Below the pieces are notes generated by a model. That model made no database searches and was not told the origin of the DNA. It was given only the letters and a program-made list of their open reading frames with translations. A stretch of DNA of 64,000 nt from Cohnella sp. AR92 (GTDB taxonomy: Bacteria; Bacillota; Bacilli; Paenibacillales; Paenibacillaceae): positions 1-64,000 of the forward strand of contig NZ_RZJR01000022.1 of NCBI RefSeq assembly GCF_003990975.1, in the 5' to 3' direction. Below, in pieces: positions 22,082 to 50,546 of this stretch; the stretch's first letter is position 1; each line of letters starts with the position of its first letter. The position numbers and the translations under genes were made by a program.

Positions 22082-23197
22082 ATGTGCGCTCTACCGATTC
22101 GGGAATCGCTTAAGCGGATTCAGGTTTATGCTCCGGCCAAGTCGACCGAGGAGACGAAGCGGGAGACGAACGACAGGCCGGTCGTGCGGCTGGCCGCCAA
22201 CGAGAATACGTTGGGCTTCTCTCCGCTAGTCGAACAGGCGATCCGGGAGGCGGTCTCCACGATCCATCTGTATCCGGACAGCTTCGCCACTCGGCTGCGT
22301 GCCAAGCTGTCCGCAGCCAGGGGCTTTTCCCCCGATCGGCTGCTGTTCGGGAACGGCTCGTTCGAGTTGCTGTCCCTATCCGCCCAAGCTTACCTCAGCC
22401 CGGGCGATGAAGCCGTCATCCCGGTGCCCTCATTCGGCTGGTACAAGGTGGCGACGTTAGCCGCGGGAGGAGTGCCCGTCGAGGTGCCTCTTCGCAACCA
22501 TAAGATCGGGCTGAACGATCTGAAGGCGGCGGTGACGGAGCGAACCAAGCTCGTGTGGTTGTGTAATCCCAACAACCCGACGGGCACCTATTACGGGGAG
22601 GAAGAGCTGGAGACCTTCCTCGCGGATCTGTCCCCCGAGATCGCCGTCGTGGTGGACGAAGCCTACTTCGAATACGTCGATCAACCGGACTATCCCGATA
22701 CCGTCAAGCTGCTCGACCGATACCCGAATCTCATCGCTCTTCGCACCTTCTCCAAGGTTTACGGGCTCGCGGGCATCCGGGTCGGCTATGCCGTTGCCGC
22801 GGAAGAGACCATCCGCACGCTCAACCGGCTCCGGCTGCCGCCGAATGTCAGCGCGCTCGCCCAAGCGGCCGCAACGGCAAGCCTTGACGATACGGCGTTC
22901 GTCCAAGCGGTGCTCGACAACAACCGCGCCGGCAAACAGTATTATTACGATTCCTTCCGCGAGCTCGGCCTGTCCTATCTTCCTACGGAGACCAACTTCC
23001 TGATGGTCGACTTGGGCTTCGACAGCTCGTCCGTCTTCGCGGAGCTGCTCCGCCAAGGCGTCCTCGTTCGCCCCGGCAGCGACTTCGGCATGCCGAGCTG
23101 GCTGCGCATCTCCATCGGCAAGCCGGAAGAGAATCGCCTCGTCATCGAGAAACTAAGCGAGGCTCTGGCCGTGGCTTCATCGTCGTCGAACAAATAA
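22082..23197 (+). CDS. HisC-like class I/II aminotransferase (PLP-dependent)
   Basis: 371 aa fold-type I aminotransferase. Seen are RLAANENTLGFSP near 38-50, WLCNPNNPTGTYY near 160-172 (PLP ring contact), VVDEAYFEYVD near 197-207 (Asp and Tyr) and TFSKVYGLAGIRVGYA near 228-243 with the Schiff-base Lys. The length fits histidinol-phosphate aminotransferases, but there are no his genes around it. As the last gene of an operon with an HcxA-like dehydrogenase it more likely transaminates a 2-oxo acid. AAGGAGG precedes the ATG; a terminator follows. Confidence 0.88.
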   Translation: MCALPIRESLKRIQVYAPAKSTEETKRETNDRPVVRLAANENTLGFSPLVEQAIREAVSTIHLYPDSFATRLRAKLSAARGFSPDRLLFGNGSFELLSLSAQAYLSPGDEAVIPVPSFGWYKVATLAAGGVPVEVPLRNHKIGLNDLKAAVTERTKLVWLCNPNNPTGTYYGEEELETFLADLSPEIAVVVDEAYFEYVDQPDYPDTVKLLDRYPNLIALRTFSKVYGLAGIRVGYAVAAEETIRTLNRLRLPPNVSALAQAAATASLDDTAFVQAVLDNNRAGKQYYYDSFRELGLSYLPTETNFLMVDLGFDSSSVFAELLRQGVLVRPGSDFGMPSWLRISIGKPEENRLVIEKLSEALAVASSSSNK

Positions 23198-23283: not shown

Positions 23284-23475
23284 TGCGAATCTATGTGATT
23301 TTTCGAGTATAATCGACGTCAATTGCTGGAAATCAGCGATTGTATTCGAAAAATCATATAGAAACAGCTCATTTTCGAAATAAATCATAATTTGTATGCG
23401 ATATTTCATATACAATGAACCAAATTGCCGATTCCTAGAAATTTGTATTCGAAAATTCGAATACATTCATCAACC
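23284..23475. repeat. Palindromic-array intergenic element, copy A
   Basis: 192 bp AT-rich element with four related motifs at 23292-23313, 23339-23360, 23392-23415 and 23444-23465. The last is TGTATTCGAA-AA-TTCGAATACA. Motifs 1 and 2 are inverted copies of each other; motifs 3 and 4 are self-palindromic. Spacers of 25, 31 and 28 nt differ in sequence from those of copy B at 50354-50546, but their lengths match within 1 nt. No ORF crosses it. Boundaries TGCGAAT and CAACC are inferred from comparing the two copies. Confidence 0.85.
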
Positions 23476-23561: not shown

Positions 23562-23987
23562 ATGCTTAAGAAAGCGAATCTGCTATTGCTTATTTGTTCT
23601 ATCTTGCTAATAGCGGTCGTACAACCGGTTACGGCGGCGGAATCAAAAACGGTTAAAATCAAGGTGACGTTAACAAGCGCCGAACTAGTAGAGAACGACC
23701 ATGTCGGCAATGAATGGTATACGGCAGCTTACGTTAACGGTAAAGAAGTTCAACTGGATAAAGCTCTCACGCTCAGTCTTAAATCCACGGATAGTCTGAC
23801 TTTGAAGGCATATGCGGAAGAGCAGGATAAAATACCGGATAAAGGAACTTCGAGTACTTCCGTCAAGGCCTCTTCGATTACAAAAACAGTAACAAAGTCC
23901 ATTAAGGTAACGGTGGTCGAGAACCGAGGCAGATATTCCGGCAACGCCGCCGAGTGGAAATTCAGTTTCAAAATCCAAAAGGCCTAA
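23562..23987 (+). CDS. Small secreted hypothetical protein
   Basis: 141 aa from ATG 23562, with GAGGGAGG 8 nt upstream. A clear signal peptide (LLLLICSILLIAVVQPVTAAES) is predicted to be cut after about residue 26. The mature part is rich in Lys, Thr, Val and Ser and looks like a single beta-sandwich (KTVKIKVTLTSAELVE ... KSIKVTVVENRGRYS). It has no Cys and no repeat anchor. Its coding sequence is more AT-rich than its neighbours and it is flanked by repeats on both sides, which hints at acquisition or low expression. No family recognised. Confidence 0.65.
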   Translation: MLKKANLLLLICSILLIAVVQPVTAAESKTVKIKVTLTSAELVENDHVGNEWYTAAYVNGKEVQLDKALTLSLKSTDSLTLKAYAEEQDKIPDKGTSSTSVKASSITKTVTKSIKVTVVENRGRYSGNAAEWKFSFKIQKA

Positions 23988-40398: not shown

Positions 40399-40475
40399 TC
40401 ATGAAGAATGCAGAACCGTGAGAAGTTCGGTATTCGGCAAGATCTTTGATATGCTCGATATAGTAGATGACACGG

Positions 40476-40538
40476 AATTCACATAACGTAAAGGGTTATC
40501 ATTACGGGATGTAACCTTTTACCCTATGTGAATTTTTT
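40476..40538 (+). promoter_or_regulatory. Long hairpin with T run in the csp leader
   Basis: AATTCACATA (40476-40485) pairs perfectly with TATGTGAATT (40525-40534). After a 3x3 internal loop TAAAGGGTTA pairs with TAACCTTTTA (one G-U). TTTTTTAT follows. It has terminator form but lies between the candidate promoter and csp, so it may act as a temperature-responsive attenuator. Confidence 0.65.
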
Positions 40539-40596
40539 ATTTCTTAGATGAGAATAAAAAAGATCATGTAAATTTAATTTTTGGAGGAATTCCAAC

Positions 40597-40797
40597 ATGC
40601 AAACAGGAACAGTTAAGTGGTTCAACGCTGAGAAGGGCTATGGCTTCATCGAAGTTGAAGGCGGAAACGATGTATTCGTTCACTTCAGCGCTATCGTAGG
40701 CGACGGCTTCAAGACTCTTGACGAAGGCCAACGCGTTGAATTCAACGTTGTTTCCGGCGCTCGCGGTCCGCAAGCTGAGAACGTTGTTAAGCTGTAA
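40597..40797 (+). CDS. Cold-shock protein, CspA/CspB family
   Basis: 66 aa single cold-shock domain. RNP1 KGYGFIEV is at about residues 13-20 and RNP2 VFVHFS at about 27-32. It starts [14 protein letters not shown]. It binds single-stranded RNA and DNA and melts mRNA structure during cold or growth transitions. TTGGAGGA precedes the ATG. It has a long AT-rich leader with a strong hairpin. Codon use is typical of a highly expressed gene. The cold-inducible ydjO-like gene follows. Confidence 0.97.
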
Positions 40798-40810
40798 TTT
40801 GCGATTTCAA

Positions 40811-40845
40811 GAAAGCTTCTGACTTGGTCAGGAGCTTTTTTCTTT
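40811..40845 (+). terminator. Intrinsic terminator after csp
   Basis: GAAAGCTTCTGAC and GTCAGGAGCTTTTTTC with a 3 nt loop and a T-rich tail. Confidence 0.88.
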
Positions 40846-50288: not shown

Positions 50289-50361
50289 GCGTCCTATCCT
50301 TAACTCAAGTCCTCATTGCGAATACGCGTCCTATCCTCAACTCAAGTCCTCATTGCGAATA
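50289..50361 (+). repeat. 37 bp-period tandem duplication at the edge of copy B
   Basis: GCGTCCTATCCT-T/C-AACTCAAGTCC... occurs at 50289-50324 and again at 50326-50361 with one difference. Each unit ends in TGCGAATA, the left-boundary sequence of the palindromic-array element that follows. Confidence 0.85.
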
Positions 50362-50546
50362 TATGCGATTTTTCGAGTATAATTGGCGCAAAATAACGAA
50401 AAATCAAAGATTGTATTCGAAAAATCATATACAAATGGTCCGCCTCCCCCAAAACCCCACAGTTATATATGAAATTTCATATACAATGACCATAATTAAC
50501 TAATTTAAGCGAAATGTATTCGAAAATTCGAATACAATCGCTAACC
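50354..50546. repeat. Palindromic-array intergenic element, copy B
   Basis: 193 bp. Motifs at 50362-50383, 50410-50431, 50463-50486 and 50515-50536 match copy A (23284-23475) in sequence and order; motif 4 is identical (TGTATTCGAA-AA-TTCGAATACA). Spacer lengths are 26, 31 and 28 nt, versus 25, 31 and 28 in copy A, but spacer sequences differ. It lies between the cydDC terminator and a minus-strand gene. Confidence 0.85.

Follow-up and report, generated by a model that had tools for sequence, protein, structure and literature searches.

A short intergenic stretch of Cohnella sp. AR92, located between the end of an aminotransferase gene at 23197 and the ATG of a small ORF at 23562 of the window (i.e., the whole analysed stretch of 64,000 nucleotides), raises the question why several AT-rich palindromes should follow each other at almost constant distance. 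The initial annotation had recognized four related AT-rich motifs at this place (copy A) and a second copy (B) in the same window; this observation is confirmed and extends beyond the window. Both copies consist of four 26-bp AT-rich dyads (Table 1), and a matrix trained on copy A only assigned ranks 1–8 in the 64-kb window to their eight units.

Table 1 Dyad units of copy A (23288–23467) and copy B (50358–50538) in the window
Unit	Position	Strand	Character	Identified by
Copy A unit 1	23288..23313	+	weaker, asymmetric dyad	chain scan (steps of 35–80 bp allowed, no bonus); alignment A1
Copy A unit 2	23339..23364	+	half-sites asymmetric	chain scan
Copy A unit 3	23391..23416	+		chain scan
Copy A unit 4	23442..23467	+	palindrome TGTATTCGAAAATTCGAATACA	copy-A matrix, chain scan
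Copy B unit 1	50358..50383	+		copy-A matrix, chain scan
Copy B unit 2	50410..50435	+		copy-A matrix, chain scan
Copy B unit 3	50462..50487	+		copy-A matrix, chain scan
Copy B unit 4	50513..50538	+	22-mer identical to copy A unit 4	copy-A matrix, chain scan

The unequal motif spacings (47–48, 52–53 and 52 bp) and linker lengths (25/26, 31 and 28 nt) described initially are products of uneven motif borders: with a single 26-bp motif, start-to-start distances become 51/52/51 bp in copy A and 52/52/51 bp in copy B, leaving linkers of 25–26 nt. Motif identity between the two copies is 0.81–0.96, while their linkers (0.54, 0.35 and 0.52 versus shuffled means of 0.43, 0.38 and 0.48) are at or near chance identity. 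The lack of linker conservation applies to this pair but not everywhere, since a copy on another contig (C12) of the same genome shares 80 % identity with copy A over 182 bp. A 37-bp direct duplication (GCGTCCTATCC...GCGAATA; 50289–50362, detected by eye) immediately precedes copy B, its second copy extending into unit 1 of the latter.

At least 24 such elements were read in the AR92 genome (6.02 Mb, 36 contigs), two in the window and 22 at fetched loci, a number drawn from the matches listed, in which weak copies may be missed. A sequence-only model search of this genome yielded 50 matches (both strands counted). A short palindromic pattern matched 102/108 times on the two strands with up to two mismatches (reversed control, 14/8) and 62/64 times with up to one mismatch (control, 1/0), and the best single-unit scores of the 22 fetched loci never fell below 23.9, whereas block-shuffled sequences did not exceed 12.0. 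All four units are present in 23 of the 24 elements; the remaining one, L026, is interrupted by an insertion that cuts off unit 4. A lone further unit, L031, is left close to the end of a contig. Where these two are cut (L026:4163–5745, L031:471–491), ends of the form ACTGGACAGT occur, and the ORF adjoining the cut in L026 has DDE transposase domains (PF13546, PF01609); therefore, an insertion sequence probably entered both elements.

A single common orientation is possible for all 24 elements. Among 23 elements, the inner half-sites read ATGA on the left (14) and TCGA on the right (11) in unit 1, TCGA (19) and ATGA (19) in unit 2, ATGA (14) and ATGA (18) in unit 3, and TCGA (18) and TCGA (18) in unit 4. 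The GC content amounts to 20 % in motifs and 47 % in linkers. Linker length does not vary freely: 44 of 69 linkers measure 25 nt, 24 measure 26 nt and one measures 24 nt, at a linker identity over all pairs of the 23 copies of 0.482 (0.431 when shuffled).

The pitch is near-fixed also in other species, which supports the early suggestion of selection on motif geometry: nearly all copies, species and dialects examined keep 51 or 52 bp while linkers diverge. With steps of 35–80 bp allowed and no bonus, 63 of 65 steps in the 22 AR92 loci are 51 or 52 bp, as are 121 of 123 in Paenibacillus timonensis 12ME58 and 65 of 67 in P. timonensis DSM 16943, the loci of the latter two having originally been found with a model of 51/52 pitch. 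In case of C. fermenti, this applies to 105 of 105 steps in 42 loci (40–64 bp allowed), eight of which had only one or two units found. The motif sequence itself varies between species, and arms as unlike as GGGGA, GTTGGA, GCGGA, GTGCGA and ACGGA occur at the same pitch, even if the pattern used to find these dialects demanded 51/52/51 over four units. C. fermenti harbours further arm dialects (L086:1492–1653, L120:4191–4352) beside its common ATGYGA type. In 24 loci read in detail, many arm sequences and up to 18 units are combined with steps of 51 or 52 bp, rarely 49 or 50. Arrays comprise 2 to 18 units, most commonly four, and many are plain tandem repeats of near-identical units.

Occurrence within the family is wide. 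In a search of a collection covering 84,980 species, the phased core pattern matched 74 stretches. The titles of 72 name Paenibacillus, Cohnella or Paenibacillaceae (26 genomes by count), and the other two belong to one Bacillaceae and one Lachnospiraceae assembly. Three of the 74 are different repeats of similar pitch and were excluded from the context counts; these 51/52-bp tandem units with other inverted arms (L098:1–412, titled P. bovis; L112:100–350, Bacillaceae; L115:180–540, Lachnospiraceae) are a sign that the pitch may extend beyond the Paenibacillaceae. A model of 23 elements matched 15 of 37 genomes of the GTDB genus of AR92, AR92 included (E ≤ 0.01). In the genus of P. timonensis, matches were obtained for 18 of 40 genomes, both query genomes included (E ≤ 1e-6). 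Both counts are lower bounds, as such a model detects dialects like its own. The presence of further copies in the own and in related genomes, which the initial annotation had proposed to search for, is thus established. Its statement that the element belongs to no class known to the reader holds within searches of Rfam, RAYT, phage and plasmid records, and papers; titles and abstracts of open-access papers contained no description of such arrays, an earlier description being possible.

Orthologous loci of P. timonensis 12ME58 and DSM 16943, of which 38 and 22 listed array places were fetched, reveal which features are retained. Flanks are shared with one of the 38 arrays of strain 12ME58 in case of 21 of the 22 arrays of strain DSM 16943; 17 of the 38 have no partner among those 22, and the one checked (L193) does have an array in strain DSM 16943. 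Four of the 21 pairs were dropped (three because their unit numbers differ, and L184/L236 because of unlike units). In the remaining 17 pairs, identity is 0.905 in motifs, 0.945 in their cores and 0.747 in linkers, with 0.819 in near (60 bp) and 0.871 in far flanks (60–300 bp, partly coding). The two strains agree in linker length in 44 of 51 cases and differ by one nucleotide in seven, as determined with a unit finder allowing steps of 49–54 bp with a small bonus for 51/52, and gap versus aligned bases number 19 versus 1287 in linkers and 811 versus 1648 in near flanks. Motifs and linker length are hence conserved at a given locus. Re-inclusion of L184/L236 changes the values to 0.894 (motif) and 0.734 (linker); of the then 54 linkers, 44 agree in length and 10 differ by one nucleotide.

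Units are lost whole. At one locus aligned across seven genomes, two to four units are present, and units 2 and 4 lie 52 nt apart in G052 versus 103 nt in strain 12ME58, unit 3 (51 nt) being gone; unit numbers at two other orthologous loci are 4 versus 13 and 4/9/17. At one shared intergenic position, two Paenibacillus genomes carry very different units (L106:5820–6054 versus L113:2518–2842), and the same holds for L184/L236, flanks being 83–90 % identical despite the unlike units. Several P. timonensis contigs end less than 200 bp from an array (L186, L192, L233, L238), as if the assembly had stopped there.

The genes adjoining the arrays are mixed. A Pfam scan of 44 of the 48 listed neighbour ORFs (predicted by a simple longest-ORF rule) left 13 of the 44 without a family at the limits used; recurrence is slight (two transposases of different families and two aminoacyl-tRNA synthetases), and partition gene families are absent among the 44. 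A tie to one gene family was therefore rejected, and control of a single regulon is unlikely because of the mixed neighbours. In AR92, 22 of 24 elements lie between predicted ORFs and two inside one. Of 22 elements classed by neighbour orientation, 8 are convergent, 12 tandem and 2 divergent (intergenic bases, 17/58/25 %), and with another ORF threshold the 24 elements fall into 11 convergent, 8 tandem, 3 divergent and 2 inside. The respective counts for 17 C. fermenti elements are 2, 9, 5 and 1. Since the counts differ between the two genomes, a general orientation rule is not apparent. About 15 array places are found on both sides of dnaA in one genome (G002), with some lean toward the origin side, while those listed for another (G057) look spread.

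The arrays are probably a DNA-level scaffold, in which dyads spaced by about five turns of the helix would serve as sites of a putative dimeric protein. Each 26-bp AT-rich dyad would be expected to bind one dimer of a DNA-binding protein, and recurrence at 51 or 52 bp, i.e., nearly five turns, would place neighbouring dimers on one face of the helix, where they could touch along the array; the more GC-rich linkers would be fairly free in sequence and fixed in length. As the arrays stand beside many unrelated genes, they would more probably serve a structural purpose, be it organisation of the chromosome, insulation or the nucleation of a larger complex, than regulate a single regulon. With phased operators and centromere-like sites, they share a constant spacing of their dyads by a near-integral number of helical turns. 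The plasmid centromere sopC of F comprises 43-bp tandem repeats with a palindrome in each and resembles the present arrays in having one dyad site per tandem unit of about whole helical turns; the latter differ in their many dispersed chromosomal copies, mostly of four units, and their pitch of about 51.5 bp.

Several findings count against such a scaffold: steps off the pitch (47–50, 53, 58 and 78 bp) are occasionally encountered, the motifs of L184/L236 are only 65–73 % identical despite four units in both genomes, and a lower mutation rate of AT-rich DNA might account for part of the higher conservation of motifs. Moreover, 22 of the 37 genomes of the genus of AR92 yielded no match to the model, from which other dialects would escape; such swings in copy number between species would be odd for a basic chromosomal function. 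More tentatively, one may speculate that the scaffold is chromosomal through much of the family, that the selected trait is the helical pitch rather than the sequence, that an evolving dimeric protein drifts together with its sites, and that arrays change by whole units with the pitch being kept.

A non-autonomous, MITE-like mobile repeat would offer a different account, in which the phased sites bind a transposase or recombinase in trans and conservation reflects mobility instead of host function. In C. fermenti, copies are mostly 75–87 % identical over most of about 125–220 bp (best pairs, one local duplication left out), similarity ending near the outer units, which are related in inverted orientation, with flanks mostly unshared (about 20 bp of flank are weakly shared in one subfamily). 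Therefore, copies multiply within genomes as a selfish element would, which is a further point against the scaffold. Copy A likewise matches at least nine other places in its own genome (10 of 76 candidates scored), and the genome with the best hisC match (G018) has no copy visible to the model, similarity at this locus stopping near the hisC stop without a clean junction. BOX, RUP, STAR, bcr1 and MITEs are small dispersed bacterial repeats, similarly noncoding and multiplying within a genome. The present arrays differ from these in that no target duplication is visible by eye (among the C. fermenti copies), pitch outlasts sequence and orthologous loci are retained. In particular, dead copies would not be expected at the same locus in two species, constrained in sequence and length, as found for the 21 of 22 fetched arrays, nor is a change of unit number at fixed sites in favour of mobility. 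Carriage by viruses, phages or plasmids was rejected, since viral contigs contained no match to the spaced pattern and phage and plasmid records none to copy A. Mobility as the sole basis of conservation is thus considered doubtful.

Still less probable is neutral turnover of a tandem repeat, with 51/52-bp units duplicating by slippage, and palindromes and pitch persisting as passive relics of the founding unit. It would agree with the tandem near-identical units of many arrays and with copy numbers changing by whole units. However, linker sequence has drifted in diverged arrays, lengths and motifs much less so, and the pitch is common to unlike motif dialects (the search pattern having required it for four units). 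Furthermore, linker indels are rarer than those in near flanks, as judged from one pair of genomes.

The initial annotation had left the choice between protein sites on one helix face and a structured RNA; the former fit, the latter does not, so that its interpretation is partly supported. An RNA in which units 1 and 2 form a long hairpin followed by two short ones is very improbable, even though folding of copy A is strong (z of −5.36 and −3.98 on the two strands) and this structure, evaluated for 23 copies, outperforms every one of 500 shuffles by four measures and all but one by a fifth. The directly counted pairing of unit 1 with unit 2 (0.776 versus 0.742, reached by 2 of 500 shuffles) is likewise in excess, which is attributed to relatedness of the copies, as these form related subfamilies that the shuffle controls leave in; among orthologs, little excess remains (7 versus 5.0). 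The RNAalifold consensus has 9 pairs and −2.44 kcal/mol, and the four self-hairpins are not clearly above shuffles, 62 to 219 of 500 reaching the observed value. Palindrome arm complementarity is 65.0 %, as compared to 65.8 % with right arms swapped between copies. Across 748 arm pairs of the 17 orthologous arrays, 123 changed on one side only and 13 on both. Independent sites would lead one to expect 7.4 such double changes, and swapping the arms among arrays gives 10.8, with 13 or more in 119 of 500 trials. A replacement of one Watson-Crick pair by another accounts for only 2 of the 13. The arms vary independently, and RNA hairpins are therefore unlikely; an RNA would also offer no reason for the fixed pitch. 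A scan of the window at Rfam gathering thresholds gave no match at copies A and B, the sole match, an ordinary cspA thermoregulator RNA (RF01766, 80.1 bits), being located elsewhere (40454–40841).

REP/BIME palindromic units occur in Enterobacteria and Pseudomonas together with a RAYT transposase. The arrays share with them imperfect short palindromes, dispersal at mostly intergenic sites and small arrays of varying unit number, and differ by the near-fixed 51/52-bp pitch and by a motif dialect changing between species. A REP/RAYT system was rejected, since RAYT (NF047646) had no match in AR92 and none above cut-off in the 37 genomes of the genus; weak matches below cut-off were obtained in six of these, four of them array-bearing. 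CRISPR, which resembles the arrays in its roughly palindromic repeats alternating with spacers of constant length, was rejected as well, because linkers are not unique (near-copies in young arrays, diverged together with the motifs in old ones), motifs differ along the array, a single genome may contain dozens of short arrays, and no cas family was detected among the 44 of 48 neighbour ORFs scanned.

If the scaffold reading is correct, the arrays would represent an extensive class of noncoding DNA in bacteria that has gone unrecognised; many members of the family would harbour dozens of them per genome, under a simple, measurable constraint of 51.5 bp. Through them, a possible system organising the nucleoid or chromosome and missed by annotation would become directly accessible, and site dialects could be matched to their binding protein across a natural series of species. 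Should the elements turn out to be mobile instead, an element with four phase-locked sites would still constitute a novel architecture.
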